Shown piece by piece: positions 13,996-59,164 of a DNA stretch of 64,000 nt. The translations under genes and the position numbers were made by a program. This stretch comes from Bacteroidales bacterium (GTDB lineage Bacteria; Bacteroidota; Bacteroidia; Bacteroidales; UBA12077). The stretch spans positions 1 through 64,000 of the forward strand of contig JANQHE010000065.1 of assembly GCA_028282785.1 (NCBI GenBank), read 5' to 3'. The notes beneath the pieces were generated by a model, which worked only from the letters and a program-made list of their open reading frames with translations, did no database searches and had not been told where the DNA came from. Within the stretch, counting starts at the first letter, position 1. Each line of letters begins with the position of its first letter.

Positions 13996-14016
13996 GTCTG
14001 CTCGCAGATAAACTTT

Positions 14017-14050: not shown

Positions 14051-14082
14051 TCATTCTTGCTTAATAACTAAAGAGAATACAT

Positions 14083-14090: not shown

Positions 14091-14093
14091 AAT

Positions 14094-14486
14094 ATGCAAC
14101 CTGTAAAGTATACATTAAAAAAAGAGGAACGGCTTAAAAGTCGCAAAATGATTACCGAATTATTTCATTCAGGCAAAATAATTCATTCTTATCCTTTTAA
14201 AGCATTATATATACTTTCAGAAGAAAAGAATAAAGAATTTCATGCACAATTTGCGGTAAGCGTATCCAAAAAGAACTTTAAACACGCAGTTGAAAGGAAT
14301 TATATAAAACGAAAAGTGCGGGAAACTTATCGTTTGAATAAACATTTATTATATAAAGAATTAATCCGGAACAATAAAAATGTTTATTTGTTTGTAATAT
14401 ATACAGCTACTGAAGATTTGCATATTACATTAATTGAAAAAGGCATTAAAAATTTAATTGCAAAACTCTCAAAAAAATTATCGTAA
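14094..14486 (+). CDS. rnpA: Ribonuclease P protein component
   Basis: 130 residues from the ATG at 14094. The frame is open back to a TTG at 14031, but that stretch runs through the hemD terminator and is not family-like. Typical RnpA features follow: the N-terminal YTLKKEERLKSRKMI, then AVSVSKKNFKHAVERNYIKRKVRETYR, the conserved RNA-binding RNR-type motif (here shown in part as HAVERNYIKRKVRE). It is the protein subunit of RNase P, which matures tRNA 5' ends. Confidence 0.93.
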   Translation: MQPVKYTLKKEERLKSRKMITELFHSGKIIHSYPFKALYILSEEKNKEFHAQFAVSVSKKNFKHAVERNYIKRKVRETYRLNKHLLYKELIRNNKNVYLFVIYTATEDLHITLIEKGIKNLIAKLSKKLS

Positions 14487-41790: not shown

Positions 41791-41818
41791 GCGCCAGTTA
41801 TTTAGCTTAACCTGCGTC
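41791..41818 (+). promoter_or_regulatory. ECF-sigma-type promoter upstream of the lipoprotein gene
   Basis: GCGCCAGTT (41791-41799) followed after 14 nt by GCGTC (41814-41818). The same pair of words occurs at 43495-43521. A CGTC-type -10 element is typical of ECF sigma promoters. The start codon of the next gene is about 120 nt downstream. Confidence 0.6.
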
Positions 41819-41936
41819 TTTAGATAATGTATGTTGTTTAGGGCATAAATTCTCTTAACTCATTTAAAAATAAGTAAGAGAAATTAAAGATAAGAATATA
41901 TAAATATTAATAAGTTCTGATTTAAAATACTATAAC

Positions 41937-42365
41937 ATGAAAAAAATCTTTTTAGCAATACTGATCTGTTCAATTGCTGTGTTTACAGCTTGTAAGTCTG
42001 GCGTAGATGGAAATGAAGTTATCTATGAATACGAAGAAGAAAAGATTGAGCTAAGTCCCGAGTTAAAAGAAAAAGTTGGTTCCTGGGCAGAAATCGGCGT
42101 CATTTGTTATGGCTGCGTGGTTGCATTAGATGAGCATGAAAATCCTATAAACGGAAAGCCGGTTAAAGCAAAAATCGTTCAAATTAGAAACGATGGGTTA
42201 AAATTAAAAGCTTTACAAAATATTAGTGTTGGTATAGGAGAAGCACAAGGTTGTACCAAACTGGGTATTTCAAAAGGCGAAACATGGTGGGAAACCGAAG
42301 GTGACATATTTAAAACCAGGGAAGAAGCCGAATCATATCTAAAAAAAAGAGGTTTAATGGAATAA
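41937..42365 (+). CDS. Small lipoprotein with a CYGC motif
   Basis: 142 residues, family not recognised. Lipobox VFTACK near residue 19 gives an envelope lipoprotein. The mature part has VICYGCVVALDE (a C-x2-C pair) and one further Cys in EAQGCTKLG. It lies directly upstream of the ECF sigma gene (24 nt) and behind one of the two matching ECF promoters, so it is probably part of the regulon. Metal or thiol chemistry is possible, from the Cys residues only. Confidence 0.7.
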   Translation: MKKIFLAILICSIAVFTACKSGVDGNEVIYEYEEEKIELSPELKEKVGSWAEIGVICYGCVVALDEHENPINGKPVKAKIVQIRNDGLKLKALQNISVGIGEAQGCTKLGISKGETWWETEGDIFKTREEAESYLKKRGLME

Positions 42366-42389
42366 TGATCATGGCTCATTATTATTACC

Positions 42390-42974
42390 ATGGATGATCG
42401 GCAATTAATTCATAAAATAGCAAATAATAATGATATAGCTTTTGGTATGCTCATAAAAAAGTACCAAAAGCTGGTTTTTAATACTGCATATAAATTAGTG
42501 AAAAACACTTCTGATGCAGAGGATATTAGCCAGAATGTTTTCCTAAAGGTTTACAAATGTATTCATCAATTAAAAGAAGAGGAAAATCTAGCAGGATGGC
42601 TTTTTAAAATAACATATAACAAAACAATAAGTTTTACACGTAAAAAGAATCCTGCCAAGGCAAATTCTTGCTTGGATATTGATTGCTTTGCACAGCAAAA
42701 ATCTTTTAATTCATTATTAGTAACTAATCATACTCCTGCGGAAAAACTTGAACAAAAAGAAACTGCAGAAGAGCTTTTTAAGGCAATTGATAATTTACCT
42801 GAAATGCAAAAAAGGGTTTTCTTGTTACACAAATTTGAAAATCTTTCATATAAAGAAATCTGCAATACTCTTGACATGACTAAAGCCTCTGTTGAATCTT
42901 TAATATACAGGGCTAAGTCCAATTTAAAAAAATCATTGCTATTATATTTTAACAACAATTTTAAAAAGTTATGA
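42390..42974 (+). CDS. ECF RNA polymerase sigma factor
   Basis: 194 residues. Region 2 (FGMLIKKYQKLVFNTAYKLV; SDAEDISQNVFLKVYK) and region 4 (NLPEMQKRVFLLHKFENLSY; YKEICNTLDMTKASVESLIY) are clear, with the linker between. No region 1.1 or 3, as in ECF factors. An inverted repeat AATAATGA..TCATTATT lies at its 5' side (42361-42383). Its stop overlaps the next start (ATGA), so the sensor protein is translationally coupled. Confidence 0.92.
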   Translation: MDDRQLIHKIANNNDIAFGMLIKKYQKLVFNTAYKLVKNTSDAEDISQNVFLKVYKCIHQLKEEENLAGWLFKITYNKTISFTRKKNPAKANSCLDIDCFAQQKSFNSLLVTNHTPAEKLEQKETAEELFKAIDNLPEMQKRVFLLHKFENLSYKEICNTLDMTKASVESLIYRAKSNLKKSLLLYFNNNFKKL

Positions 42975-43480
42975 TGACAAAGAAACACAGGATAATAATA
43001 TGGCTTAATGTTTTTTTGCTGGTAATAAATATTCCGGCATTTACTACTATTTTGTTTATGAATCGATCAACTGTGTCCGAAGAAAGTAATGATAAATACA
43101 AATCGGACATGTTTCTGAAGAAAGAACTTAATTTAACTGAGGATCAGTTTATTGCCCTTAGCAAGTTAGATGGAAATGTTTTCAGAAGCTATCAGGTATT
43201 ACTTGATAAACAGTGCGAATTTAATTTTGACCTGCTAGAAGAGCTGTCTGCCGAAGACCCATCAAAAGAAGCTCTGGATTCAATTGCAAATCGTATTGGA
43301 CGATATCAAACATTATTAAAAAAACAAACGATTAAGCATTTTATGAACATCCGGAGTATATGCACGGAGGAGCAAGAAAAATTGTTGGATGACCTTTTAC
43401 AAGATATGATGAACCTTGGAGATCAGTGTGCAATATGTAATAAGCAGAATTGTGATAGAAAGGACAGGATAAGAAAATAA
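42971..43480 (+). CDS. CnrX/Spy-like periplasmic metal-sensor protein
   Basis: 169 residues: an N-terminal membrane anchor (IIIWLNVFLLVINIPAFTTI), then helices resembling the Spy/CpxP/CnrX hairpin fold: KKELNLTEDQFIALSKL, and KQTIKHFMNIRSICTEEQ with His and Cys residues. A C-terminal tail has four Cys-type ligands (CAICNKQNCDRK). CnrX-like proteins sense Ni/Co in the CnrYXH system, where the sigma factor is CnrH. Translationally coupled to the ECF sigma gene, which supports a sensing role. Confidence 0.75.
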   Translation: MMTKKHRIIIWLNVFLLVINIPAFTTILFMNRSTVSEESNDKYKSDMFLKKELNLTEDQFIALSKLDGNVFRSYQVLLDKQCEFNFDLLEELSAEDPSKEALDSIANRIGRYQTLLKKQTIKHFMNIRSICTEEQEKLLDDLLQDMMNLGDQCAICNKQNCDRKDRIRK

Positions 43481-43494
43481 TTTTTTAGTTATCT

Positions 43495-43521
43495 GCGCCA
43501 GTTTTTTTTCTGACTAGCGTC
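43495..43521 (+). promoter_or_regulatory. Second ECF-sigma-type promoter, before the anti-sigma-like gene
   Basis: GCGCCAGTT (43495-43503) and GCGTC (43517-43521), 13 nt apart. It shares both words with the site at 41791, which suggests the sigma factor at 42390 drives its own locus. Confidence 0.6.
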
Positions 43522-43620
43522 AATTAAAATATCGAGGCAATAAATGGCGAATTAAATCAAAAAATATTAATGCCAGCTATAAAAACAAATAAACTTTTGA
43601 TGAATAATTAAAACATAATA

Positions 43621-44022
43621 ATGAGAATGCAGTGTAAGGCTATATACCAATTTGTTGACGGAGAAATATCAAAAGAGAAATTTGAGGATCATATGAAGGA
43701 ATGTTCCCTTTGCAAACAAATGCATACAAATTTAGATGATGCGTTTTCTATCCTTGAGCTTAGTGCGGATGTACCCGAAAATATGGCCGAAAAAATTATC
43801 AGGAAAAAGAATGACCTTCCTAAAATAATTTCGCTGAAAAGAGATCTTTCAATGATCTTACAAATCGCTTGTGTCGCAATTGCAGGGATATTTCTCGGAA
43901 TTGTTCTAGGAAAAAATTCAAACACTCAACTTATAATGGGTAAAAGCTCCGAAAGAACAAAATCATTAATAGAATATAGAGATAGTCATCATTTTACAGT
44001 TAATCCTAATTTTTTTAAATAA
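43621..44022 (+). CDS. Zinc-finger anti-sigma-like membrane protein
   Basis: 133 residues: a ZAS-type motif H-x3-C-x2-C (EDHMKECSLCKQM, residues 23-34), then one membrane helix (ILQIACVAIAGIFLGIVLG, about 80-98) and a short periplasmic tail. Family anti-sigma factors hold ECF sigma at the membrane. It stands behind its own ECF promoter, 140 nt after the sensor gene, and 29 nt before the polyferredoxin gene. Confidence 0.75.
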   Translation: MRMQCKAIYQFVDGEISKEKFEDHMKECSLCKQMHTNLDDAFSILELSADVPENMAEKIIRKKNDLPKIISLKRDLSMILQIACVAIAGIFLGIVLGKNSNTQLIMGKSSERTKSLIEYRDSHHFTVNPNFFK

Positions 44023-44051
44023 ATAATCCTTCAAATTATTATAAAAAGAAA

Positions 44052-45998
44052 ATGAAAAATAAAAGAAACCTTTCAAATTGGCCTAGAAACATTATCCAAT
44101 GGAGTGTTATTTTAACAATTGTAGTTTTAGCAATTTTACCAAGTATTATTAAGGGATTTACACCGGATTTCGAAGCATATTGCCCTTTTGGTGGTGTACA
44201 AGCATTAGGAAGTTATTTATTAAACCAATCGCTTGCATGTACCATGACAAGTTCACAGATCATAATTGGTATACTCATGATGGTTGGAGTTTTTCTGTTT
44301 AGCAAATTATTCTGTGGATATATATGTCCGGTAGGAACATTCAGTGAGTGGTTCGGTAAACTCGGAGACAAATTGAGGGTTAGGATTACCATTAAAGGAG
44401 TAGTTGATAAAATTCTTCGATCATTAAAGTATATACTACTTTTTATCACGTTTTATTTCACATTCGCTTCAAACGAATTGTTTTGTAAACAATTTGATCC
44501 GTATTATGCCGTAACTACCTGGTTTAGTATTGATGTTGTTGTTCTTTATGCAGCTATTACAATTGCATTAGTTGTCTTAGGATCTATATTTATTCGTTTA
44601 TTTTTTTGTAAATATATATGTCCTTTCGGTGCTTTTGCCAATATACTGAAATTTACAGCTTTTTTCGCAGGAGTTCTTATAGTATACATTTTACTATTGA
44701 AATTTGGAATTGAGATAAGTTACGTTTGGCCTTTGACTATAGCATGTGCAGGAGGTTATATTATCGAAATAACCGGACTTAGTGGCAAAATATTTCCGTT
44801 AACAAGAATTACCCGTAATGAAGATACCTGTATAAACTGTAACCTTTGTAATAAAAAATGCCCTCAGGCTATTGATGTTGCAAATGTTCAAACGGTAAAG
44901 CATGTAGATTGTAACTTATGTGGAGAATGTATTGAAGCATGTCCTGTAGAAAACACTGTTCAAATCAATAAGAAGAGAAGCTTACGCTGGTTACCGGTAA
45001 TTGTAACTGTAATCCTTGTTTTAGTAGGCATATCATTAAAAGATGTAGTAGAAGTTCCTACTATTGATCAAAAATGGGTTCCGGATGAGGAAATTACAAA
45101 TATGGCAACTTTTAACCAAGATGGATTAAGAAGTATTAAATGTTATGGATCTTGCATGGCCTTTGCAGGAAAGTTGAAGCGTGTTAAAGGAATATATGGT
45201 ATGGCTGCTTATGTTGGAACAAACAAAGTGAAAATACTATACGATTCGACGTTATTAAATCCTGAAAAAATTCAACAAGCCTTTTTTACACCACTAAAAA
45301 GACCTTTACAATCAATTCAAAAGGATGTAAAAAATGTTAAAAAAGTAAAAGCCTTACTTGAGAATTTCTTCGATGCATATGACTTTAATTATCTATCAAT
45401 CTTATTGCAACAGAAAACGAATGCTCTGGGTTTACAAATCGAATATGGATGTCCTGTTAATGTTTACATTTATTTTGCCGAGAACGAAAACATCGATGAA
45501 TCTAAGTTAGCAGAATTACTCGAATCAAAAAAGATAAGCTATGAATCGGCCGGAAAAATCAAGGTGGCAGAATTAGATTACGAGGTAGTTTCTAAATTGG
45601 AGATTGAACAGATATCAAGAGAAGAATATATAAGTCAGCTTTTTGAAGCTTACCAGGTAAGTTTTAATGATTATGATAAATACGATAGTTTAATTATTAA
45701 TAAGTATCGTATATCTCTTGGTAAAAACGCAGCTTTAAAGCGTAAGTTTTCATACCTGGTAAGTCATTTATCAAATAATAACGGAATAATTAAGTTCGAA
45801 ACAAACCTAAACGAAGATTATAAGCAGGTAATTGATATATCTTATGTAGATAGCCTTATTAATGAAAAGGAAATTTACAATCTACTAACGAGTGACACTC
45901 TATATTTTACTTATAGAGATGGAAGAACAGGAACTACCGAAAACGTATTTAAGTTCCCTGAGGAAGGAAGCGCCATTTTTAGTAAAAGGAACGAATAA
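44052..45998 (+). CDS. NosR/NapH-like membrane polyferredoxin with an HMA-like domain
   Basis: 648 residues. About six membrane helices carry two NosR/NapH-type motifs (LFCGYICPVGTFSEWFG; FFCKYICPFGAFANILK) and an early YCPFGGVQAL. Two 4Fe-4S sites follow near residues 255-300 (CINCNLCNKKCPQ; CNLCGECIEACPVE). After a last helix comes a domain (about 345-400) resembling HMA metal-binding folds: CYGSCMAFAGKLKRVKGI, NKVKILYDSTLLNPEKIQQA. The 250 C-terminal residues are unrecognised. Predicted to pass electrons from the cytoplasm or quinol pool to a periplasmic partner. Confidence 0.8.
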   Translation: MKNKRNLSNWPRNIIQWSVILTIVVLAILPSIIKGFTPDFEAYCPFGGVQALGSYLLNQSLACTMTSSQIIIGILMMVGVFLFSKLFCGYICPVGTFSEWFGKLGDKLRVRITIKGVVDKILRSLKYILLFITFYFTFASNELFCKQFDPYYAVTTWFSIDVVVLYAAITIALVVLGSIFIRLFFCKYICPFGAFANILKFTAFFAGVLIVYILLLKFGIEISYVWPLTIACAGGYIIEITGLSGKIFPLTRITRNEDTCINCNLCNKKCPQAIDVANVQTVKHVDCNLCGECIEACPVENTVQINKKRSLRWLPVIVTVILVLVGISLKDVVEVPTIDQKWVPDEEITNMATFNQDGLRSIKCYGSCMAFAGKLKRVKGIYGMAAYVGTNKVKILYDSTLLNPEKIQQAFFTPLKRPLQSIQKDVKNVKKVKALLENFFDAYDFNYLSILLQQKTNALGLQIEYGCPVNVYIYFAENENIDESKLAELLESKKISYESAGKIKVAELDYEVVSKLEIEQISREEYISQLFEAYQVSFNDYDKYDSLIINKYRISLGKNAALKRKFSYLVSHLSNNNGIIKFETNLNEDYKQVIDISYVDSLINEKEIYNLLTSDTLYFTYRDGRTGTTENVFKFPEEGSAIFSKRNE

Positions 45999-46048
45999 TC
46001 ATTTGTAAAACAAATACTAAACATCTTAATCTACTAAAAACAAAAGCT

Positions 46049-48430
46049 ATGAAAAATTTTTTACTTCTATTTTTAACTCTATTCTCCGCCACATTAATCA
46101 TGGCACAGACCACTTACAACTGGGTGCCACAAACTCTTAGCCCGGATAATAACCTTCAGGTTATGACAACAGTAGAGGATACTCTGGTTGTTGTAGGAAA
46201 TAACAATTCTTTTTTTAAGTCCGTTAATAAAGGGATTAACTGGGATTTTGTAAAAGTCGTTGATGCAGAATTTGATTTTTCTTCGATGAGTATAAGCGAT
46301 GGCGGAACAGGGTTATTGTCGACTCGAAAATCCAAAATTATCAACTATAGTGGTATTACAGACCCTACCGCTAGTGGAATACTTCTTAAAACAACAGATC
46401 ATGGAACAAGTTGGAGTATTATCGACCTTAACGGGATTTCAACTTCAAACCCTGCTTTAGATCCAAATAAAGAAGGTTCTTTTGGTTTAGATCTTTTTAC
46501 GGTAGAGTGTGTTGATGCCAACAATGCTTTTATTTACGTAGGTTGGTCAGATGTAATTACCGGAAGTAAAGTTTCGTGCGGAGCTGTTTTTGAAACTTCT
46601 GACGGAGGAACCACATGGGACCCAATTTCTGACGACTTAGGAAGCTATATAACTACTGCTATTCAAACAAAAGGTACAGTAACTTATATTGCTGGCAATA
46701 ATCATCTTTTAAAAAGAACAGGCGGAACAACAACAGACCTTTATCCGGCCTTAGTAGCTGCTGATGGTGGTTCTGATCAAACAATTTATATTTTTGATAT
46801 TGACGTAATTAGTGAAACAGAATTTTATGTGGTAACTACCTCTAATGGCCTTTTTCATTCTACTGATGGAGGTACAACAATAACCGAACTTACAGGCACA
46901 GGTATCCCTTCGGGAGGAAATGATCTTAAAGTAATAGATGCTAATACTATAATGGTATTGGGAACATCATCAAAATCAAAACTTACTGTTGATGGCGGTG
47001 CAAATTGGATTGGTTGCTACCCCGGAGAAAGCTGCTGGGAAATTGAGGGAGTTTTTAATGATTCGGTTTACGCATTGGCTAAAGATGAGATTTATAAAAT
47101 TGCAGTATCAGATTTAAATTCAAACCCTACTAACTGGAAAGCGCAAGTAATAACCGATTTAGGAGAAAATATTCAGCAAATGCATATTGTTGATGCCAGT
47201 AATGCAATTATTGCAGGTAATTCGGAAATCATAAAATCAACAAATGATAAAGGAATTTCCTGGACCGACGTTGCGATTCCTGAACTTTACGATCAGGCAG
47301 CCGAAACACAGGAATATGAAGTTAGCTTCAATGGATTATGTTACTCAGAAGGTGTTTCATATGCTGCAGCACGACGTTATGATCTTGAGTCTTATTCTTC
47401 GGTTATAACGTACTATCCCGGACCAATATTTAAATCAACAGACAATTGGAAAACTTGGGAATTACTTGATATTAATGAAATTGGATCGGAAAACGAAGCA
47501 GATGTTACGATGTATCCGTTTCATGATGACTGCTATGGTTTCGATCCTTATTCTATAGAATGCATAACCGATTCGATTATTTATGTATGGGCAAACTGGT
47601 ACGATACGGTTGCTGGTTATGATGACAAAATTAGCCACTCTCGAGTTTTTAAATCAATAGACGGAGGCGAGACATGGAACTCAATAACTGATGACTTAGG
47701 AAGTCCTTTTGTTACGGCAATCCATTTTGAAGATAAAGACAACGGTTATATAGTTGGTAGTAAAACATTATTAAAAACTACTGATGGAGGACAAAATTTC
47801 ACAGACTTACACGCTACTCTTGATCCTACCGGCGACCTGAATATGTACTTCAAAGGAGTAACCTATGTAAGTGATGATGAGATATATTTCCCTACAACCA
47901 GCGATTCTGTTTGGGTAACAAATGATCAGGGAACGTCATTTTCCACAGTTAATTCTTTAACCGGAGCTAATGATGTTATTAAACTTTATGACGATCATAT
48001 TTTAGCTCTTGGATCTACTTCGAAATCATTTTTAACAAAAGATGGTGGAGAAACTTGGGAAGAATGTAGTCCTGGAACAACAGTATGGAGCATTGGTGGA
48101 GTTATTAATGATTCACTTTTTGTTTTAACAAAGGGAGATATCTATAAAATTGCATTTTCTGAATTAGTTGAAATCCCGAGTGGTGTGGATAATGAAATTA
48201 TGAACAGCAATTTAATCAAGATACTAAACAGCAAATCAGAAGTTGAGGTTGTTTCTTATGAGGATGACATTGAAACTTGTGTTGTTTACAACATTCTGGG
48301 GCAACTTATTGAAATTAAAAAACCTAATGGGAGGTCTTGTAGAATTAATAAATTAGAATATGAACCAGGCATATATATTATAGCAACCTTTACAAACAAT
48401 AAGAGATATACCCATAAGGTTGTTTTCTAG
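46049..48430 (+). CDS. Secreted YCF48/BNR-repeat protein with internal duplication and T9SS domain
   Basis: 793 residues. Signal peptide (FLTLFSATLIMAQ), then many SxDGGxTW-type repeats (TSDGGTTWDPIS; SIDGGETWNSI; TTDGGQNFTDL) typical of beta-propellers. Residues about 130-370 are duplicated at 480-715: each half ends YKIAVSDL / YKIAFSELVE. The end is a type IX sorting domain (VVYNILGQLIE ... GIYIIATF). It lies 50 nt after the polyferredoxin gene. Confidence 0.85.
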   Translation: MKNFLLLFLTLFSATLIMAQTTYNWVPQTLSPDNNLQVMTTVEDTLVVVGNNNSFFKSVNKGINWDFVKVVDAEFDFSSMSISDGGTGLLSTRKSKIINYSGITDPTASGILLKTTDHGTSWSIIDLNGISTSNPALDPNKEGSFGLDLFTVECVDANNAFIYVGWSDVITGSKVSCGAVFETSDGGTTWDPISDDLGSYITTAIQTKGTVTYIAGNNHLLKRTGGTTTDLYPALVAADGGSDQTIYIFDIDVISETEFYVVTTSNGLFHSTDGGTTITELTGTGIPSGGNDLKVIDANTIMVLGTSSKSKLTVDGGANWIGCYPGESCWEIEGVFNDSVYALAKDEIYKIAVSDLNSNPTNWKAQVITDLGENIQQMHIVDASNAIIAGNSEIIKSTNDKGISWTDVAIPELYDQAAETQEYEVSFNGLCYSEGVSYAAARRYDLESYSSVITYYPGPIFKSTDNWKTWELLDINEIGSENEADVTMYPFHDDCYGFDPYSIECITDSIIYVWANWYDTVAGYDDKISHSRVFKSIDGGETWNSITDDLGSPFVTAIHFEDKDNGYIVGSKTLLKTTDGGQNFTDLHATLDPTGDLNMYFKGVTYVSDDEIYFPTTSDSVWVTNDQGTSFSTVNSLTGANDVIKLYDDHILALGSTSKSFLTKDGGETWEECSPGTTVWSIGGVINDSLFVLTKGDIYKIAFSELVEIPSGVDNEIMNSNLIKILNSKSEVEVVSYEDDIETCVVYNILGQLIEIKKPNGRSCRINKLEYEPGIYIIATFTNNKRYTHKVVF

Positions 48431-48448
48431 CTAAATTCTCTTTAGTGA

Positions 48449-48478
48449 TTGGAGGGAAAACTCATTCCCTTCAATCTT
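48449..48478 (+). repeat. Hairpin between the YCF48-like and TonB receptor genes
   Basis: ATTGGAGGGAA and TTCCCTTCAAT face each other around a 6-nt loop. It lacks a strong T-run, so it may be a weak terminator or an RNA-processing site in the transcript. Confidence 0.45.
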
Positions 48479-48535
48479 TCTAAAAACTGAAAATGACATT
48501 CTTGTCGGTTAGTCTTTATTAATAATCTTCTTAGA

Positions 48536-51274
48536 ATGAAAAAAAATATATTTGTTTTCCTCCTTTTTATGCTTCTTAACCTGTTTACAGGATATTCGCA
48601 AACTGTAATTGATGTAAAAGGCAAAGTTATATGTAAAAAAACCGGAGAACCGATCACATTCGGAGCAGTTAATTTAAAAGAAATTGAACAATGGACAACC
48701 ACTGATGAAAACGGTTTTTTTGAATTCCATCAAATTGTGCCTGGTACTTATACCCTTGAGATTTCTTGTTTAGGATATAAAAGCCACTCAGCACCAATAT
48801 TAATTGAAAAAGATAAAAACAGGGAAATCTTAATAAAAATTGTGCCCCAGACATTCGATATGGAAGAAGTTTGTATTCTCGCTAAAAAAAATACGGATAT
48901 TTCATCAACAACCGATATCAGAAGTGCTGCAATAGAATACATTCAACCAACAAGCCTTGGCGATATTATGCAATTACTTCCTGGAAATATTGCAGAAAAT
49001 CCGGATTTATCAAAGCCCCAACAAGTTGTTATTCGCGAAATAGGAACAGATGATAATAGCGCAAACGGAACAGCAATTATTGTTGACGGAACCCCGATAT
49101 CAAATGATGCCAATATGCAAACGTTTTCCAAAGAAAATGTTCTTTACGATGACGATAATTTTAACTCCGTAGTAGGATCCGGTGTGGACCTTAGAAATAT
49201 TTCTTCGGATAACATTGAATCGGTTGAAATTATTAAAGGAATACCCTCAGTAATTTATGGTAATCTTACTTCAGGTGCAGTTGTTGTTAATACCAAAGCA
49301 GGACGCACTCCTTTAGAAGTTAAAATGAAAACTGATCCTAAAATTAAGCAATTTGCCGTTAATAAAGGGCTTAAACTAAAAAAGGATAACAGTTTTATTA
49401 ATTTTGACCTGGGATATATTCAGTCATTTTCCGACCTAACCAGTAAGTACAAAGGATACAACCGAATAACCGGGGATATAGCGTATTCCAAAGTATTTTT
49501 TAAGAAGAGATCAATACCCTTTTCTTTTAATACAAAACTTAATTATTTCAACACATTCGATGTTGAAAAAACCGATCCTGATGCGCTAGCTGCCGAAGAG
49601 GAATTTAGTAATGAGGAAAATGGTATTCGCTTGACTTTCAATGGAAAGTGGGCATTAAAAAAGAAGATTATTTCTAATCTGAAATATAATTTCTCATTTA
49701 GTTATACACATCAGGAAAGTTACGAGAAAAGATATAGAACTACCGGCGGAAATGTTGAGTCAATTTCTTTTGCTTTGGAAGAAGGCGAAAATGCAGGAAT
49801 ATTCCTTCCTATAGAACAACTAACCGAGTTTACAATAGATGGCAAACCCATTCAGTATTTCGGGCAAATAACAGCCGATAAAAGCAAATTATATAATAGC
49901 GGACTTATTAACAAGCTTATTTTTGGGTTTGAGTTTCGAAGAAATGAAAATTTAGGCGATGGAAAAATTTACGACCTGAATAACCCTCCGGTTATTTCCA
50001 GTGTAAGTACACGTCCGAGAGCATTTAAAGACATTCCAGCCTTACAGAATTACTCTATTTACCTGGAAGATAAAATAAAAATACCAATTCGTACAACGTT
50101 TTTGACGTTCCAGGCAGGAGCCAGATTAAATAACTTCCAGTCAGAAGGATTATTTTCAAGCGAGCTGGGATTTTTTCTCGAACCAAGATTTAATATAAAA
50201 TATGAACTATTAGATAAAGAAAATAATAAACTATTTGATAAGCTTAATATTAGTTTTGGTATCGGAAGAAACTATAAATCTCCTTCATTATACAATTTAT
50301 ATCCCGAGAAAACATATTTTGATTTATCAGTACTTAATCATCCCGACACAGAAACAGCAATATTTTATACACTCATATATGAATCTGACAATCAAAATCT
50401 TAAGCCATCTCACAATACTAAATATGAAGCAAGTATCGATTTTAGAATAAGAAATGTTTCCGGAAATATAACAGGGTTTTATGAAAATCTGGAAAATGGT
50501 TTCGGATTCCAAAAGAGCTATGAATTTGTTGATTATTACATATACAATGCATCGGGAGTTGCAGAAGGAGAAATACCAGATCCCTCAACTTTGCCCAAAA
50601 ACGATGCAGATTATATTTTAGGGTATTTAATTCCGGTTAATAACAGACAAACAAAGAAAACCGGGATTGAGTACAATCTTAATCTTGGGAAACTGAAGTT
50701 CCTGTATACATCATTTAATCTTGATGGAGCATGGTTAAGAACAGAAAGAGTTTATAGTACGGAAGATTATCAACACCTTCCAAGTAGCGGAACATCTGAG
50801 CAGTTTGATTATATTGGAGTTTACCCTGCAGGAGAAAGCAAAATAAGCGAGCGCTTAAATACTAACTTACGTATGGTAACCCATATACCTGAACTAAGAA
50901 TGATCCTTTCAACATCCATGCAAATGATCTGGTATGATAAATATTATTACCCAAAGTATGATGAACAACCTGTTTACCTTACTGATAAAGAAGGCAACAC
51001 AGTTCCTTTTACTGATGACTTGGTTGAGGCAAATCCAAACTATCAAAAATACATTACTGTAAAATCAGATTCTTATTACAAAACAGAAACTATGTCGCCT
51101 CTTTGGGTTGCAAATATCAGGCTTTCTAAAGAAATAACAGATAAAATGAAATTAAGTCTTTATGTAAACAACTTTCTGAATTACAGGCCAATGTATAAGT
51201 TTGAAAGATCTGAGAGTTACATTAGAAGGAATCAATCCATTTATTTTGGTGCAGAATTGAAAATTAAAATCTAA
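48536..51274 (+). CDS. TonB-dependent outer-membrane receptor
   Basis: 912 residues: signal peptide (FLLFMLLNLFTGYSQ), a CarboxypepD_reg-like beta domain (about 23-110, KGKVICKKTGEPITFGAV), a plug domain (about 125-255, with VIREIGTDDNSANGTAIIVD and ESVEIIKGIPSVIYGNLTSG) and a large beta-barrel. No SusD-like gene is present, so this is not a standard polysaccharide locus. The next two genes encode DUF4876 and DUF6850 proteins, which I expect to act with it. Confidence 0.92.
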   Translation: MKKNIFVFLLFMLLNLFTGYSQTVIDVKGKVICKKTGEPITFGAVNLKEIEQWTTTDENGFFEFHQIVPGTYTLEISCLGYKSHSAPILIEKDKNREILIKIVPQTFDMEEVCILAKKNTDISSTTDIRSAAIEYIQPTSLGDIMQLLPGNIAENPDLSKPQQVVIREIGTDDNSANGTAIIVDGTPISNDANMQTFSKENVLYDDDNFNSVVGSGVDLRNISSDNIESVEIIKGIPSVIYGNLTSGAVVVNTKAGRTPLEVKMKTDPKIKQFAVNKGLKLKKDNSFINFDLGYIQSFSDLTSKYKGYNRITGDIAYSKVFFKKRSIPFSFNTKLNYFNTFDVEKTDPDALAAEEEFSNEENGIRLTFNGKWALKKKIISNLKYNFSFSYTHQESYEKRYRTTGGNVESISFALEEGENAGIFLPIEQLTEFTIDGKPIQYFGQITADKSKLYNSGLINKLIFGFEFRRNENLGDGKIYDLNNPPVISSVSTRPRAFKDIPALQNYSIYLEDKIKIPIRTTFLTFQAGARLNNFQSEGLFSSELGFFLEPRFNIKYELLDKENNKLFDKLNISFGIGRNYKSPSLYNLYPEKTYFDLSVLNHPDTETAIFYTLIYESDNQNLKPSHNTKYEASIDFRIRNVSGNITGFYENLENGFGFQKSYEFVDYYIYNASGVAEGEIPDPSTLPKNDADYILGYLIPVNNRQTKKTGIEYNLNLGKLKFLYTSFNLDGAWLRTERVYSTEDYQHLPSSGTSEQFDYIGVYPAGESKISERLNTNLRMVTHIPELRMILSTSMQMIWYDKYYYPKYDEQPVYLTDKEGNTVPFTDDLVEANPNYQKYITVKSDSYYKTETMSPLWVANIRLSKEITDKMKLSLYVNNFLNYRPMYKFERSESYIRRNQSIYFGAELKIKI

Positions 51275-51280
51275 AGAATT

Positions 51281-52459
51281 ATGAAAAAATTAATGCTCTA
51301 TATTTTGTTAATTTTCATGTGTTATTCCTGCATAAAAGATCCGGAATTTAACAGTTTAAGTATGGATCTTACATTTGATTTCGGAGATGAAATTTTATCT
51401 GCAGAAAAAGAAAATGCAAAAGTAATCCTTAGTAATCTACAGAAAAGTTATTCTACTACAGATTATACAAATCAGGAAGGAAAAATATATTTTTCGAATA
51501 TAGAACCAGGCTTTTATAGTGTTCAGTTAACGCATTCTTTTGAAAATGAATCAGGGAATACAGTTAATGCTAATGGATTGCAAAGCTACAAGGTTTTTTC
51601 TTCAGTGCAGGATACCATTGAGGTATCTTTAAGCGCTACCAACTCGCTTGTAATAAAAGAATACTACTATAGTGGTAGCATTACCCCGGCAGGAAATTCT
51701 TATTCAGCAGATCAATATGTAGAAATTTATAATAATTCATCAAGCCTGCAATATGTTGATGGAATGTCAATTATAGAGCATGAGTCTTATGGTATCGAAC
51801 CTAACTACTGGGATTGGATGGAAGATACCATCGTAGTCAGGGCGATATTTACCATTCCGGGAGAAGGAACAGATTATCCATTACAACCGGGAGCAAGTAT
51901 TGTTATTGCAAGAGATGCCTTTGATCACAAAAGTGACCCTCTAGGAAACCCATTGTGCCCTGTAGATTTGGCACATGCAGATTTTGAGTTTTTCATATAT
52001 TCTGCTTCCGGGAACGATATTGATGGAGCCTATTCTCCTAATATGATAGAAGATCTTTTTACTTTCAGGGGCTCGGATTATGTTTTTCATACACGTGGAG
52101 GAAGTGCCATTGCACTTGCTAAAATACCAGGTAATGATGCTGAGAGAAAAGATTACATAGCCAATCATTTGACTTTAAAAAATCAAGTGTCTTCGACCCG
52201 TTATTATGGAAAAATCCCGATCGAATGGGTCATTGATGCCATTGAAGCCGTTTTTGACGAAGCACATGCAGTATATAAAAGGCTTCCTATTGAACTTGAT
52301 GCAGGTTACACTTTTAATCCTGAAGGAACAAAAACGGGATTATGTTTAAGACGAAAAGTCAAAACGATTGTTGATGGAAGAGTAGTATACCAGGACACAA
52401 ATAATTCTTGCGAAGATTTTATTAAAGGTACTGAACCAAAACCATGGATTTATGAATAA
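51281..52459 (+). CDS. DUF4876 lipoprotein
   Basis: 392 residues. Lipobox CYSC near residue 17. An early beta-sandwich segment (about 25-115) precedes a lamin-tail-like domain (IKEYYYSGSITPAGNSYSAD; QYVEIYNNSSS). This fits DUF4876, a Bacteroidota family found beside TonB receptors. It is 6 nt after the receptor gene and overlaps the next gene by 8 nt. Probably a surface-exposed or periplasmic accessory that helps ligand capture; the ligand is unknown. Confidence 0.8.
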   Translation: MKKLMLYILLIFMCYSCIKDPEFNSLSMDLTFDFGDEILSAEKENAKVILSNLQKSYSTTDYTNQEGKIYFSNIEPGFYSVQLTHSFENESGNTVNANGLQSYKVFSSVQDTIEVSLSATNSLVIKEYYYSGSITPAGNSYSADQYVEIYNNSSSLQYVDGMSIIEHESYGIEPNYWDWMEDTIVVRAIFTIPGEGTDYPLQPGASIVIARDAFDHKSDPLGNPLCPVDLAHADFEFFIYSASGNDIDGAYSPNMIEDLFTFRGSDYVFHTRGGSAIALAKIPGNDAERKDYIANHLTLKNQVSSTRYYGKIPIEWVIDAIEAVFDEAHAVYKRLPIELDAGYTFNPEGTKTGLCLRRKVKTIVDGRVVYQDTNNSCEDFIKGTEPKPWIYE

Positions 52460-54008
52460 AAGAGTATTTTTTATTGTATTGTTTGCATTTCAGGTTATTG
52501 TATCAAAAGCTGTAGAGCAAGATTCTACTGTTAATGTTTCCTTAAGTTCGTTCGAGATGCTAAAAATTTTGAATCCCTGGTTAAATACCTCCAATCCGGC
52601 AGCATTGCAATTTAATAAGGGAATTCTTCCCCGAATGATTAATCTTTATTATGGGTTGGAAGATGGCGATTTCAAAAAGGTGCAACAAGGAGAACAACTA
52701 AATAATTATAGTTTTCAAAGTAAATCATACCTGAAAATAGAAGACATAAATTTATTTGGAAGTTTCAGCTACGATAAAAGTTATGAGAATAATCTCGATT
52801 TTTCTAATACAAACAATCCATACCGGGAAACTCCATATGATATGGTTGACACCATTGGTGGAGATACCTACGATAGAGAATTCTTTTATTTAAAAGGGTC
52901 TATGTCAAAACCAATAGGTGAATTTACCAGTTTTGGTATTTCCTTTGATTTTGGTATTGGTGTATCGGTTCAGGAAAGCGACCCAAGACCAGAAAACAAA
53001 GTTCTTGACATTTCTGTAAGTCCCGGATTTATCCATTCTTTATCGAAGTTCAAATTCGGATTAAATTTTATTTACAAATATTACAACGAAGAAATTGAAG
53101 TAGACATTGTAGAAGACGATGCAACAGCTACTATATTTCGAATGTTGGGGCCTGGTGTTTATACTTACCATGAGGCCCAATCATTTAATCGACTTTATAA
53201 AAGAAATAGTTTTGGAGGAGATGGCCAAATTTCATATAAAACAAAAGATCTTAACACAATTCTCGGAGTAAAGACGGTTTACTTCAAAGAAACAGTTCAG
53301 GATGGAGGAAAAGGAGGAGGCGCATCATGGAATTATATACGCAATTATGCCGAATTTGAAGGTATAGACTGGAATGTATACGATATTTTGCAAATCGATA
53401 AAGGTTTAATAATTCATGATCTAAATGCGAATTTTCATTTATTAACAACGCGAGGAACGGAAATAATCGAAAACCTTGAACAAGTGGGGGACTTAGATAA
53501 TGAAGACTGGGTTTTTTATTCAGACGAACCGAAATACCAATCGCAAAGAATTGATGCGTCTTTGGCATACCGTTTTATCAAACTTAAAACAAAAGCATTA
53601 CAAAACTATACATTGGAAGTAAAAATTAACTATGATTCATATAAACAGGAATATCATATTCCTTACCAGATAGAGAGTTACGATAATGCTTTGATAGGTT
53701 TTAAGGCTTCAAAAGTATTTAATATTAAAAATACCATGTTATCGTTAAGCACAGGAATAGATTATAAAATGAGTTTAGATAGTAAGCAGAACTTTGAAAA
53801 AATCAATTTTATTTATGACAGGATATTATATCCTGATTTTGAAATGCTTACTAACAATTATTATGCTCCAATAGTTAATTTTTCATACGAACAACCATTA
53901 AATAAATTATTTGAAAAAATCTTTTTTGATGCTAAAACCAAGCTGTTAATAGGAGAAAATGGCCAGTCTCGCATAATAGCTAATTTTAGCACAGGAGTAA
54001 TCTTTTAA
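52452..54008 (+). CDS. DUF6850 outer-membrane beta-barrel protein
   Basis: 518 residues with a signal peptide (VFFIVLFAFQVIVSKA) and a run of amphipathic strands with aromatic girdles through to a terminal FSTGVIF. It fits DUF6850, which travels with DUF4876 and a TonB receptor. The start overlaps the DUF4876 stop (ATGAATAA), so translation is coupled. Function unknown. Confidence 0.75.
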   Translation: MNKRVFFIVLFAFQVIVSKAVEQDSTVNVSLSSFEMLKILNPWLNTSNPAALQFNKGILPRMINLYYGLEDGDFKKVQQGEQLNNYSFQSKSYLKIEDINLFGSFSYDKSYENNLDFSNTNNPYRETPYDMVDTIGGDTYDREFFYLKGSMSKPIGEFTSFGISFDFGIGVSVQESDPRPENKVLDISVSPGFIHSLSKFKFGLNFIYKYYNEEIEVDIVEDDATATIFRMLGPGVYTYHEAQSFNRLYKRNSFGGDGQISYKTKDLNTILGVKTVYFKETVQDGGKGGGASWNYIRNYAEFEGIDWNVYDILQIDKGLIIHDLNANFHLLTTRGTEIIENLEQVGDLDNEDWVFYSDEPKYQSQRIDASLAYRFIKLKTKALQNYTLEVKINYDSYKQEYHIPYQIESYDNALIGFKASKVFNIKNTMLSLSTGIDYKMSLDSKQNFEKINFIYDRILYPDFEMLTNNYYAPIVNFSYEQPLNKLFEKIFFDAKTKLLIGENGQSRIIANFSTGVIF

Positions 54009-54018
54009 AAGCAAATTT

Positions 54019-54906
54019 ATGAACAATGTAATTGAATGTAATAACCTCACACACTATTACGGTAAAAAACTAGTATATGAAAACCTTAATATCCATGTTG
54101 AAGAAGGTAGTATATTAGGATTACTCGGAAAGAACGGTGCAGGTAAAACAACAACAATAAATATCCTGAACGGATTTTTACAACCCCGAAGCGGAGAATG
54201 CTTAATTTATGGCGAAAACACACAACATTTAACTCCTGCAACAAAAGGAAGAATAGGTTTCTTAATTGAAGGACATGTGCAGTATTCTTTTATGGATATA
54301 CACCAGATAGAGAAATTCTATTCTGGATTTTACCCTAACTGGAATAACAAACCATACTGGGAGTTAATGTCCAAACTAAAAGTTGAACCAAAACAAAAGA
54401 TATCAAGTATGTCTTGCGGACAACGTTCACAAGTTGCACTTGGGCTAATTTTAGCTCAAGATCCTGACTTGCTGATACTCGACGATTTTTCTATGGGCCT
54501 TGATCCCGGTTATCGTCGCTTATTTATTGATTACTTGAGAGCTTATGCAAAAGCTGAGAACAAAACCATTTTTACAACATCTCATATTATTTCCGATATG
54601 GAAAGACTGATTGACGATGTGTTAATTATGGATTACAACAGGGTCCTTGAGCAATGTCCTGTAAATGATTTTATGACCAATTTCAAACAATTCAATTTTG
54701 AATTAGCGAATGGCGAAATTGATTTATCAAAAGAAAGCTTCGTAGCAAATTTTGAAAAAGTGAAAAGTTCTGTAGAGCTTTATACTTATGAGTCTGAAGA
54801 GTTTATTAAAGACTTTCTGAAAAAAGAAAACATTGCACACACTAACTTTTCTCAGATGAATATGAGTTTAGAGGATGCATTTATTGGTTTAACAGGTAAA
54901 TATTAG
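54019..54906 (+). CDS. ABC transporter ATPase (NosF/CcmA-like)
   Basis: 295 residues. Walker A GLLGKNGAGKTTT at 35-46, signature MSCGQ at 131-135 (usual LSGGQ), Walker B LLILDD at 151-156, D-loop GLDPG and switch His in TTSH. The residue after the Walker B Asp is Asp156 where most ABC proteins have the catalytic Glu, so turnover may be slower. Size and context (permease next) resemble NosF-type exporters. Confidence 0.88.
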   Translation: MNNVIECNNLTHYYGKKLVYENLNIHVEEGSILGLLGKNGAGKTTTINILNGFLQPRSGECLIYGENTQHLTPATKGRIGFLIEGHVQYSFMDIHQIEKFYSGFYPNWNNKPYWELMSKLKVEPKQKISSMSCGQRSQVALGLILAQDPDLLILDDFSMGLDPGYRRLFIDYLRAYAKAENKTIFTTSHIISDMERLIDDVLIMDYNRVLEQCPVNDFMTNFKQFNFELANGEIDLSKESFVANFEKVKSSVELYTYESEEFIKDFLKKENIAHTNFSQMNMSLEDAFIGLTGKY

Positions 54907-54910
54907 AAAT

Positions 54911-55582
54911 ATGTGGAAATCAGTTATATATAAAGAATGGTTAAAAATAAAATGGTTTCAGATTGCTTTAACTGTTTTAGGTTTACTAATAGTTGGGAAG
55001 ATCTTTCTAAAAGTTCAACACGACATTTTGTTTAACGAAGCGCATAATGTGTGGTATTTTATCCTTTTTCAGGGATATGCATATTACGGGGGAATCCTAA
55101 AATTCATACCATTAATTATTGGAATTGGAATTGGTATAGCACAATTTGTACCTGAAATTATGAGCAAACGAATAAAACTCACGTTTCATCTTCCAATTAA
55201 CGAAAACAAGGCTCTTTTCATGATGCTTTCTTTTGGATTTTTGTGTTTACTTCTAACTTATGCCATCATGTATGGTTCGTTTATTGGATTAAGCCATCAT
55301 TTTTTAGCCGGAGAAATAGTGGAAAAAGCGAATGTTTCAATAATCCCGTGGTTTTTAGCAGGATTTTCGGCGTATTTTTTTGTGGCTCTTATTGTTTTGG
55401 AACCTATAATGAAATACAGGTTATTTTATTTAATCGTTACCTGTTTCTTCATTATTATTTTTCTTGAACACCAGGTTCCGGGAGGATTTAAGCCAATAAA
55501 TTGGAAACTAACAGTTTTAACTTTAATGACCAGCGTTTCTTTATTATTTTCTGCTTACCGTTTCAGAAAAGGAGAAATGTAA
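54911..55582 (+). CDS. ABC transporter permease (six helices)
   Basis: 223 residues with six hydrophobic helices and no strong sequence name. It starts 4 nt after the ATPase gene, so the two should form one ABC-2-type transporter. The early motif VIYKEWLKIKW is typical of ABC-2 permeases at the N-terminus. Substrate unknown. Confidence 0.82.
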   Translation: MWKSVIYKEWLKIKWFQIALTVLGLLIVGKIFLKVQHDILFNEAHNVWYFILFQGYAYYGGILKFIPLIIGIGIGIAQFVPEIMSKRIKLTFHLPINENKALFMMLSFGFLCLLLTYAIMYGSFIGLSHHFLAGEIVEKANVSIIPWFLAGFSAYFFVALIVLEPIMKYRLFYLIVTCFFIIIFLEHQVPGGFKPINWKLTVLTLMTSVSLLFSAYRFRKGEM

Positions 55583-55638
55583 TCATTTTAGTTGCTAGCA
55601 TGAATTAAACAATTTTAATAAAAAATGAACTTAATCAG

Positions 55639-56865
55639 ATGAAAAATATTAGCAGATATATTTTAGTTTTTATTGCCATACTTTCCTTTGCTGTGGCTCT
55701 ACCAAAATTTTACTGGCTGGTTTTTGAAAAGCCAATCCGGTCTCCTTTCATTATGTACAGTTGTATTGATGATGATTTTATGATCATTGAAAATGGTGTT
55801 CGTAAAGATTTAAAAGGAAATAAATATACACGTGAAGAATTCGAGCAAAAATTACCACTTTTAAACATGCGCCAGTTAATTGTTTCAGGTGTTATGCCGG
55901 ATTCAATAAAGGGATACGAAATGGACCCGCACGAAGTAAACTCTCACCGCTCGTATTTCAGGTATAAACCTTCAACGGTATTTGCTCCCAAACCGGGGAT
56001 TTATCCGCTTTTTGAGTCGGAATCGGGAAGGGCACAGCTTGAAATGCCCCAGGATTTCTTTCGTATCCAGGGACGAATGGAATTTGTAGATGCTGCAACC
56101 AATAAAGTGATTGAAGAAAAGACAAGAATGTTTACAGCTGTTCTTCAAAAACGGGGATTCCGGTTCCCTGCGAAAATGATAGAAGGGATTCCTACAACAA
56201 GAAAATCCTGCGATGAAGGTTACATTGTAGTTGATGCGAATGATATGTTATACCATGTGAAAATGGCACAAGGTAAACCTTATGTTAAGAAGATCGATCT
56301 GCCGGAAGGTTTGAAATTCAAATTTATAGGTTGCGTTGATTTCAAAGATAAAAAATACTATTGTTACTTATTTTCAGAAGATAATGAACTCTATGTTCTT
56401 ACGCAAGACGAGTATGAACTTATTAAGTGGTCGGTAGAAGGTTTGAATCCGGAAAACGAAGAAATAAGGATATATGGCGACTTTTTTAATTACAATGTGA
56501 TTCAAGTTGGTAAAAACTATATGAAAAATACTGTTTTAGATAAGGATTACAAGAAAGTTGATAAATATAGCAGTTCTTGGCTCAAACGTTCGGATACATT
56601 CCAGGGAAAAGTTTTTAGCTATATTTTTCCTGCGGAAATTAATCTTGAATACAAGTATAGCAGCTTCAATGATTTTTATTTTAATCGATCAAAAGGAATT
56701 AACTGGATTATTTTAAATGCAATCTTTTTAATGATACATGTTGTAATTATTAGAAAAAGAAGAGCAATTATAAAAAATCATATAATTGATTTAGCAATTA
56801 TTTTTATTACAGGAATTTATGGTTTTATAGCAATAAATATCTTTCCTAATAAGTTTTATGATTAA
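55639..56865 (+). CDS. DUF4857 membrane-anchored protein
   Basis: 408 residues: one N-terminal helix (ISRYILVFIAILSFAVAL), a periplasmic beta-rich domain (about 30-345, with RSPFIMYSCIDDDFMII) and two C-terminal helices. It matches the pattern of DUF4857, seen beside such ABC genes in Bacteroidota. Last gene of the long operon, followed by a terminator. Function unknown. Confidence 0.75.
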   Translation: MKNISRYILVFIAILSFAVALPKFYWLVFEKPIRSPFIMYSCIDDDFMIIENGVRKDLKGNKYTREEFEQKLPLLNMRQLIVSGVMPDSIKGYEMDPHEVNSHRSYFRYKPSTVFAPKPGIYPLFESESGRAQLEMPQDFFRIQGRMEFVDAATNKVIEEKTRMFTAVLQKRGFRFPAKMIEGIPTTRKSCDEGYIVVDANDMLYHVKMAQGKPYVKKIDLPEGLKFKFIGCVDFKDKKYYCYLFSEDNELYVLTQDEYELIKWSVEGLNPENEEIRIYGDFFNYNVIQVGKNYMKNTVLDKDYKKVDKYSSSWLKRSDTFQGKVFSYIFPAEINLEYKYSSFNDFYFNRSKGINWIILNAIFLMIHVVIIRKRRAIIKNHIIDLAIIFITGIYGFIAINIFPNKFYD

Positions 56866-56890: not shown

Positions 56891-56925
56891 AAGCTGTCTT
56901 AAAATCTTTAAGACAGCTTTTTATT
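56891..56925 (+). terminator. Intrinsic terminator after DUF4857
   Basis: AAGCTGTCTTAAA (56891-56903) and TTTAAGACAGCTT (56907-56919) give a 13-bp stem, then T-rich sequence. Confidence 0.88.
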
Positions 56926-58820: not shown

Positions 58821-59164
58821 TTTAATGGATAATTCATAGGATGTTCGGCACAATGAAAAGAAATGCAGATTGCTTTGTTATTTTCATTTCCCATGCTTAT
58901 TTTAATATACACTTCGCTATTTTTAACCAGTTTGCCGAAAATCCACATAGGCAAGATGCCACGCATTTTTTCTTCTAGAGGGCCTTCTGAATAATCTTCA
59001 GTTTTTAAGGAATGAATTATTTCTTTACGTTTTGCCGGTGAAATTTCTAAATCGTGCAATGCTTGTGAATTTTTACCGCGTTCATCAAGAAACAGTATGC
59101 CGAAAATATCCATCTTTACTTTTAGTTCTTTTAAGAACGTTTCAACTTCTTGTTTAGTGATCAT
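58817..59164 (-). CDS. MqsR-like toxin
   Basis: 115 residues. The layout follows MqsR/BECR-type toxins: an N-terminal helix, LEISPAKRKEIIHSL, then DYSEGP, WIFGKLVKNSEVYIKISMG and the last strand CISFHCAEHPMNYP. Known MqsR cleaves mRNA at GCU. The identification rests on this pattern and on the coupled MqsA/Panacea partner; primary identity to E. coli MqsR is low. Toxin-first order is also as in mqsRA. Confidence 0.65.
   Translation of the reverse strand: MITKQEVETFLKELKVKMDIFGILFLDERGKNSQALHDLEISPAKRKEIIHSLKTEDYSEGPLEEKMRGILPMWIFGKLVKNSEVYIKISMGNENNKAICISFHCAEHPMNYPLK

Follow-up and report, generated by a model that had tools for sequence, protein, structure and literature searches.

An operon that joins two modules

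The stretch analysed here, hereafter the window, comprises the first 64,000 nucleotides of contig JANQHE010000065.1 in the assembly GCA_028282785.1 of a Bacteroidales bacterium. It contains an operon of 12 open reading frames (ORFs), all on the + strand at positions 41937-56865 and separated by intergenic gaps of -8 to 140 bp, with a promoter-like motif on the 5' side and a terminator-like hairpin on the 3' side. This operon joins two modules. Module A consists of an extracytoplasmic function (ECF) sigma factor, a CnrX-like sensor, an anti-sigma factor and a NapH-like polyferredoxin, while module B consists of a TonB-dependent receptor, DUF4876 and DUF6850 proteins, an ATP-binding cassette (ABC) ATPase, a permease and a DUF4857 protein. 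A preliminary description had noted twelve same-strand genes with small gaps and had read them as a module for metal uptake or metal-centre maturation. The layout is as it had stated, and the conserved gene order and the promoter-like motifs described below indicate that the operon is probably one jointly controlled unit of the metal-uptake type, a conclusion that we regard as well supported.

All features listed here are on the + strand. The first gene (41937..42365) encodes a 142-aa lipoprotein, lipo142, which belongs to no Pfam family and carries 2 cysteines beyond the lipobox that are conserved across the aligned rows. The product of the next gene, the ECF sigma factor (42390..42974), matched Sigma70_r2, r4_2 and the sigma70-ECF superfamily in Pfam and NCBIfam. 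The CnrX/Spy-like sensor candidate (42971..43480) and the anti-sigma factor candidate (43621..44022) each possess one predicted transmembrane helix (TM). The sensor scored 18.8 bits against Metal_resist, below the cut-off of 29.2, and its C terminus ends in CxxC...C in 16/16 rows of a hand-picked alignment; it may be a metal-binding sensor of the CnrX type. The anti-sigma candidate showed a weak RsrA-like match (E 0.0033) and a short tail with HH, and its HxxxCxxC motif, spotted by eye, was found in 9/11 rows of a hand-picked alignment. Both alignments drew on hand-selected loci, namely the window and 16 others that are either named or from the own genome. In one clade, an ORF of 110-120 aa that the anti-sigma model did not recognise takes the place of the anti-sigma gene.

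The polyferredoxin gene (44052..45998) is followed by a gene for a Ycf48/BNR propeller with a Por_Secre_tail of type IX secretion (46049..48430; Pfam/NCBIfam), an optional member that is missing in some relatives, for example L057, L098 and L104. The TonB-dependent receptor (48536..51274) was identified by Pfam and NCBIfam, and a search of solved structures gave no relative of it at 1e-5. The DUF4876 lipoprotein candidate (51281..52459; Pfam) is related to the solved structure PDB 4q1z, and the DUF6850 protein (52452..54008; Pfam E 2.6e-78) has a signal-peptide-like start. The ABC transporter ATPase (54019..54906; Pfam/NCBIfam) precedes a small permease (54911..55582) with 5 TMs by hydropathy. 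The permease had no Pfam match of its own and appears ABC-2-like through its relatives, since ABC2_membrane_4 was matched by 2/26 aligned permeases. The last gene (55639..56865) encodes the DUF4857 protein, with an N-terminal TM, a central domain and two C-terminal TMs. A Foldseek search with its model returned 9 matches at E <= 0.001. Their TM-scores were low, and several were titled as beta-propeller or WD-type; the central domain may thus be propeller-like, and we took these matches to indicate fold rather than function. Profiles of the DUF4857 protein, the permease and the DUF6850 protein found no usable relative among solved structures. Just past the last gene lies an intrinsic-terminator-like hairpin (56891..56919) of 13 pairs with a T-rich tail. 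Because such hairpins were no more numerous in the region than in shuffled sequence (7 found, 8.2 expected), it is the place and length of this one, and not the number, that argue for a terminator.

A polyferredoxin with an HMA-like C terminus

The polyferredoxin contains Fer4_5 in two stretches and dicluster domains (Pfam/NCBIfam), and it shows the features of NosR-type proteins, namely two CxxxCP motifs and a di-[4Fe-4S] ferredoxin domain. Cysteines 44, 63, 88, 92, 145, 186 and 190, the eight cysteines of the di-cluster domain, and C364 were each found in all 106 sequences or in 105 of them. The Fe-S part therefore has 15 conserved cysteines, the single exception at any position being a gap, and those in the membrane may act as an electron wire.

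The AlphaFold2 model of this protein had a mean pLDDT (predicted local distance difference test) of 86 and a pTM (predicted template modelling score) of 0.73. The whole model yielded no Foldseek match at E <= 0.001, so only a local superposition of the C-terminal part was used. Residues ~355-409 matched the metal-binding domains of copper ATPases by profile (ATP7B, whole-sequence E 4.2e-5, with no single stretch passing alone), and this HMA-like part superposed locally on the Menkes (1.6 A) and MerP (1.7 A) domains over 61 columns, with Foldseek E values of 0.2 and 0.44 that are not significant. In the window protein, C364-Y-G-S367 replaces the CxxC of the metal site, and both C364 and S367 are invariant in an alignment of 53 sequences. 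The last predicted TM separates the di-cluster domain, expected to be in the cytosol, from everything past residue 330, which is thus likely periplasmic.

Most of the gene identities in the preliminary description were recovered by Pfam or NCBIfam; the sensor stayed below threshold, the anti-sigma factor was matched weakly, and the HMA domain was found by profile together with a fold match that is not significant. Its gene list had also left out lipo142, both promoter-like motifs and the terminator-like hairpin.

Promoter-like motifs and paralogues in the same genome

Two ECF-type promoter-like motifs were found in the operon, both on the + strand. Motif 1 (41793..41819), with the sequence GCCAGTTATTT-N10-GCGTCT, lies upstream of the lipo142 gene, and motif 2 (43497..43522) lies inside the 140-bp gap between the sensor and anti-sigma genes. 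The two sites share GCCAG[AT]TT followed by GCGTC[TA]. A GTC is typical of ECF -10 elements, and it is the place of the motif and its GTC element that lead us to read it as a probable ECF promoter. A narrow pattern, CCAGWTNTTN{10,12}CGTCW, had 2 matches in the 5.5-Mb genome, namely the two sites of this operon. Since the promoter patterns were devised with these regions already inspected and the narrow one was drawn from the two window sites, these match by construction, and the scan adds only the near-absence of other sites. Across five genomes the narrow pattern matched 8 times, with 7 of the matches at this operon, and the reversed pattern matched 4 times.

A relaxed form of the motif was present in 32/36 sensor/anti-sigma gaps (own paralogue included; near-identical or short gaps removed), compared with 11/3600 shuffled gaps (0.3%) and 13/1750 random stretches, and the 4 remaining gaps contain near-matches by eye. 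For the regions upstream of lipo142, the removal of near-identical ones reduced 49 to 39. A looser pattern was found in 11/29 of those from sigma-bearing loci and in 0/10 of those from sigma-less loci (one-sided p 0.021), with 18/7800 shuffled regions as the control. The ECF-promoter-like motif between the sensor and anti-sigma genes is new here.

The same genome (G000) holds a second module A on contig C55, at 279000-298000 (L016), in which the order is sigma, sensor, anti-sigma and polyferredoxin (40% identical to that of the window), followed by a DUF4953/DUF5117 Met-zincin gene and SusC/SusD. This copy has its own variant of the motif, GCRCAAGTTTT...TTGTCTTA, with 2 matches in the genome and 0 for the reversed pattern. 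One of these sites lies in its sensor/anti-sigma gap and was known beforehand; the other, before its sigma gene, was not. The window and C55 copies each have the appearance of a private ECF regulon that regulates itself, and the distribution of the motif suggests that the ECF trio of the window controls hardly anything beyond this operon. Module B is also present elsewhere in the genome. Contig C65 carries the complete set from the TonB receptor gene to the DUF4857 gene without a polyferredoxin, contig C36 carries TonB-DUF4876-DUF6850 without ABC genes, and contig C72 carries the same three genes at a contig end, where further genes could follow. On contig C5, at 13676-14280 (L020), there is a DUF4857 copy interrupted by several stop codons.

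Conservation of gene order across genomes

In the survey of the order, the polyferredoxin was found in 42/393 genomes and DUF4857 in 51/393. A class-wide search detected the polyferredoxin in 1/295 genomes, only in the genome of the window; no more than 3-4 candidates were scored per genome in this search, so that the polyferredoxin counts may be low. In 7/9 genomes with both families, the two genes are in one cluster. In G387 and G673, one contig starts with the propeller gene and module B and the polyferredoxin lies at the end of another contig, which probably represents one operon split between contigs.

At the level of loci, the polyferredoxin adjoins module-B genes in 10/42 cases (9/40 fetched loci and the window). 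The 42 loci are the 40 fetched plus 2 of the own genome; 6/48 rows were left out (G476, G567, G613:C8 and the short pieces G673:C57, G614 and G534:2510298). A second set of named loci comprised the best 80 of 320 GTDB matches, which were picked by similarity and are therefore biased towards this type. In this set, 50/80 loci have DUF4857, DUF4876, DUF6850 or the permease on the strand of the polyferredoxin, DUF4857 is present in 34/80, and the sigma factor with the sensor in 33/80. A six-gene core of polyferredoxin, TonB receptor, DUF4876, DUF6850, ABC ATPase and permease was found anywhere in the fetched stretch in 23/80, and together with the sigma factor and sensor in 20/80. The counts of 10/42 and 50/80 are not independent, since the polyferredoxins of 15/80 named loci also occur among the survey loci. 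By record titles, the named loci include Draconibacterium, Maribellus, Prolixibacteraceae, Butyricimonas and Calditrichota, with several gene orders. Two carriers of the operon are recorded as named strains, Maribellus maritimus 5E3 (L099) and Draconibacterium aestuarii Z1-6 (L100).

To place this linkage on a phylogeny, 106 distinct polyferredoxins (duplicates and pieces < 450 aa removed) were used to build a tree by a quick method, with 65/103 inner branches starred. Among them, 54 are linked to module-B genes. With 15 unlinked rows from loci truncated at contig ends scored as unknown, the tree requires at least 9 changes between the linked and unlinked states.

Other neighbourhoods of the polyferredoxin were also noted. 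It often adjoins S46 peptidase genes (L060, on the same contig as L170, and L077, L078, L092, L093, L150, L158, L169 and L172); these neighbours were called by similarity to one label protein, and Pfam S46 was tested on one. In L061, L062, L064, L066-L068, L070, L074, L079, L086 and their named kin, a polyferredoxin without module B lies opposite one conserved gene, exonuclease-III-like by eye only, in a separate conserved neighbourhood. Proteins in L116 and L019 that looked gingipain-like by eye matched HEAT repeats only, while a protein in L120 matched Peptidase_C25 below the cut-off. Around the operon itself, the 27 window proteins encoded outside it included no metal-uptake family by Pfam; downstream, on the opposite strand, 57804-58853 encodes an MqsA/SocA-Panacea antitoxin-like protein.

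Module B, iron and the reductase slot

Module B is already in print as an iron-responsive locus, and it is the polyferredoxin and ECF trio joined to it that are unusual. In Bacteroides thetaiotaomicron, the genes BT3625-33 increased 37-128-fold in iron depletion, and the tables of that study list a DUF4857 protein, hypothetical proteins, an ABC ATPase, two PepSY proteins, DUF4876 proteins and a TonB receptor (PMC10434189). The same study gives a 21-214-fold increase in iron depletion for Porphyromonas gingivalis PG1019-22, which include DUF4876 and TonB receptor genes. Two further sources tabulate a P. gingivalis DUF4876 gene, one under haemin-dependent expression and one under the transcriptome of a mutant (PMC10470040, PMC10101095). 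Given the printed response of BT3625-33, the TonB-DUF4876-ABC-DUF4857 half of the operon can be considered known as iron-responsive. The preliminary description had held that these functions are not usually listed together; this does not apply to that half, and it stands for the polyferredoxin with the ECF trio.

The PepSY proteins of the sister loci suggest which slot the polyferredoxin might fill. PepSY proteins have been described as iron or siderophore reductases (PMC13142918, PMC8238504), and the latter source treats NapH-like proteins as modular conduits for electrons and ascribes iron reductase activity to one PepSY-like protein. Among 57 DUF4857 loci (56 fetched and the window), 20 contain PepSY, 7 the polyferredoxin, none both and 30 neither (two-sided Fisher p 0.045, in a test that ignores relatedness). 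A small CTHxCKH-like lipoprotein shows a parallel distribution: it was found in 20/20 PepSY loci, in 16/30 with neither reductase and in 0/7 with the polyferredoxin, as counted with PepSY and lipoprotein models that were built from the same loci. Neither PepSY nor this lipoprotein was found in any of the 34 named loci with both polyferredoxin and DUF4857. In the window, positions 38001-64000 encode no PepSY protein and no small oligonucleotide/oligosaccharide-binding (OB)-like lipoprotein; 37/57 DUF4857 loci are likewise without PepSY. This distribution supports, without proving, the view that PepSY and the polyferredoxin are alternatives in DUF4857 loci.

The small lipoprotein lies beside 36/57 DUF4857 loci (for example, L017:12810-13370 and L206:9641-10225), and the L017 copy has a His/Asp-rich stretch. 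Its only match was a weak, sub-threshold one to an OB fold, and it is a possible metal-binding partner.

Comparison with known systems

A non-exhaustive search of titles and abstract starts found no description of this operon in the literature. CnrYXH is a metal-responsive ECF system of Cupriavidus, and the window trio shares with it an ECF sigma factor, a sensor candidate with one TM and an anti-sigma candidate with one TM. The differences are that the window sensor does not reach the Metal_resist cut-off and has a CxxC...C end, and that the trio heads an operon of the uptake type and no efflux pump. NosR acts with NosDFY in the assembly of nitrous oxide reductase. The window operon resembles this set in its polyferredoxin with two CxxxCP motifs and its ABC-2-like pump, but differs from it in the C-terminal HMA-like part and the TonB receptor.

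The BT3625-BT3633 locus, as given in the published tables, has the TonB receptor, DUF4876, the ABC ATPase, a hypothetical protein between the ATPase and DUF4857 genes, and DUF4857 in common with the window; two PepSY-TM proteins stand in place of the polyferredoxin, and the printed list includes no ECF trio (PMC10434189). The strand-consistent set TonB-DUF4876-DUF6850-ABC-DUF4857 places the window operon, C65 and other loci in this type of cluster. XusABC, as far as it is described in PMC13142918, follows the same logic of a TonB transporter, a surface lipoprotein and an inner-membrane reductase, whereas the window has DUF4876 instead of DUF4374 (no DUF4374 match was found in the operon by Pfam), has no PepSY, and adds the ABC pump, DUF4857 and its own ECF trio. 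The NapH-like extracytosolic electron transfer systems likewise include a PF12801 membrane Fe-S protein with varied partners; they are defined in that source by flavinylation-associated clusters (PMC8238504), in contrast to the window protein with its HMA-like end.

Proposed mechanism and alternative explanations

We consider it about an even bet that the operon is a dedicated ECF-sigma regulon that serves TonB-dependent uptake of a chelated metal, most likely iron, by reduction, and that the polyferredoxin occupies the reductase slot. According to this model, the CnrX-like sensor and the membrane anti-sigma factor would hold the sigma factor until a periplasmic signal frees it to transcribe its own operon from two promoters, one before lipo142 and one before the anti-sigma gene. 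Passage of the metal complex through the outer membrane would fall to the TonB receptor together with the surface lipoprotein DUF4876 and DUF6850. The polyferredoxin would take electrons from quinol or a cytosolic donor and pass them via its membrane Fe-S motifs to the periplasmic single-cysteine HMA domain, and would there reduce or release the metal, which is the presumed job of the PepSY proteins in the sister operons. The ABC-2-like pump and the periplasmic DUF4857 domain would then handle the freed chelate or metal. What was observed directly is the gene content and order, their conservation, the distribution of the motif, the invariant cysteines and, by profile and local fold match, the HMA-like domain; promoter activity, signal, metal, topology and the direction in which electrons and substrate move belong to the model, as do ferric reduction and transport.

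Several observations weigh against this model. The iron response in print concerns sister loci for which no ECF trio is listed, and a CnrX-like sensor with an HMA domain could equally indicate copper, nickel or another metal, while a standard copper-chaperone site is made less likely by CxxS instead of CxxC. The exclusion between PepSY and polyferredoxin was tested without regard to relatedness. The 30/57 DUF4857 loci with neither reductase mean that none is obligatory, and L158 (1/80) holds PepSY and the polyferredoxin together, with no DUF4857 in its stretch. As for the linkage of the modules, both families occur in 9/393 genomes where 5.5 are expected (one-sided Fisher p 0.075, not significant), and 32/42 surveyed polyferredoxins were not seen beside module B, some of them cut by contig ends; several unlinked ones adjoin S46 peptidase genes or oppose another conserved gene. 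The co-occurrence of the polyferredoxin with DUF4876, DUF6850 and DUF4857, on which the preliminary description had staked its reading, holds by gene order and is weak at the genome level alone. As for the promoters, the reversed narrow pattern also matches, once in the own genome and 4 times across the five genomes, and the relaxed motif, a form that excludes the CTGG variant, was found upstream of lipo142 in only 5/29 sigma-bearing and 0/10 sigma-less loci.

The same architecture might serve copper or another thiophilic metal, which the sensor would detect, the polyferredoxin reduce (for example, Cu(II) to Cu(I)), the HMA domain carry and the ABC-DUF4857 part move or expel. The HMA-like domain is nearest to copper-ATPase domains among solved structures, the sensor is weakly Metal_resist with a conserved CxxC...C, and the trio is arranged like CnrYXH. 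Nevertheless, we consider this explanation unlikely: the HMA site has a single invariant cysteine, related module-B loci respond to iron in the printed tables (PMC10434189), and no copper enzyme or resistance family was among the Pfam matches of the operon above the cut-off. Resistance-nodulation-division (RND) genes upstream in one clade were considered as copper efflux genes, but the one protein tested was of the AcrB type (ACR_tran) by Pfam, so the RND genes were not used as metal evidence. Assembly rather than uptake, in which the polyferredoxin and ABC-DUF4857 would mature a metal centre for an enzyme of the periplasm or cell surface whose gene lies elsewhere, recalls the Nos set in outline through the CxxxCP polyferredoxin, the ABC-2-like pump and a membrane-anchored periplasmic domain. 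The preliminary description had drawn this analogy while seeing no nosZ nearby. In the genome as a whole (81 contigs, listed as 100% complete) no NosZ was found either: the NosZ model TIGR04246 reached at best 24.6 bits against a cut-off of 625 and TIGR04244 had no match, other target enzymes not being searched for. The polyferredoxin scored 36.8 bits against the NCBIfam NosR model (cut-off 1000) and had no FMN-binding Pfam match at E 0.01, and the recurrent partners are the TonB receptor with DUF4876/DUF6850. The analogy with Nos as metal-centre maturation was therefore not sustained, and we regard assembly as very improbable.

Two further explanations concern the association of the modules and the nature of the substrate. 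A general periplasmic redox polyferredoxin and an iron operon could be functionally separate neighbours, by chance or through weak co-regulation. The modules are indeed also found apart within one genome (C55 and C65), and the large unlinked fraction and weak genome-level association are in line with this. On the other hand, separate clades of the polyferredoxin tree share the gene order, in several arrangements, and motif 2 would drive both modules as one transcript, so that true separateness seems to us rather doubtful. It is similarly improbable, in our estimation, that the operon takes up a protein- or peptide-bound cofactor, such as haem or another metal-peptide, which surface proteases liberate and whose release in the periplasm requires the polyferredoxin. 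Genes for S46, M16 and DUF4953 Met-zincin peptidases do recur beside the polyferredoxin or TonB-DUF4876-DUF6850 (1-2 proteins of each tested by Pfam), but these peptidases vary between loci and no peptidase family was among the Pfam matches of the window operon.

Returning to reductive uptake under a dedicated ECF regulon, a more specific form of it is offered tentatively, at somewhat less than even odds. It would be a hitherto undescribed type of transporter, whose metal reductase is an Fe-S wire that spans the membrane, ends in a periplasmic HMA domain with a single cysteine and takes the place of the PepSY type, with each copy under a private two-promoter ECF regulon, so that paralogues in one genome do not cross-talk (GCCAG/GCGTC vs GCRCAAG/TTGTC). 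The two seemingly insulated regulons in one genome would make a neat case for the study of sigma/promoter specificity. If this proposal is true, it would add a second class of periplasmic metal reductase to metal uptake in Bacteroidota, would give DUF4876, DUF6850, DUF4857 and the NapH-like polyferredoxin family a first testable role, and would make the promoter motif a direct handle on expression and sensing.

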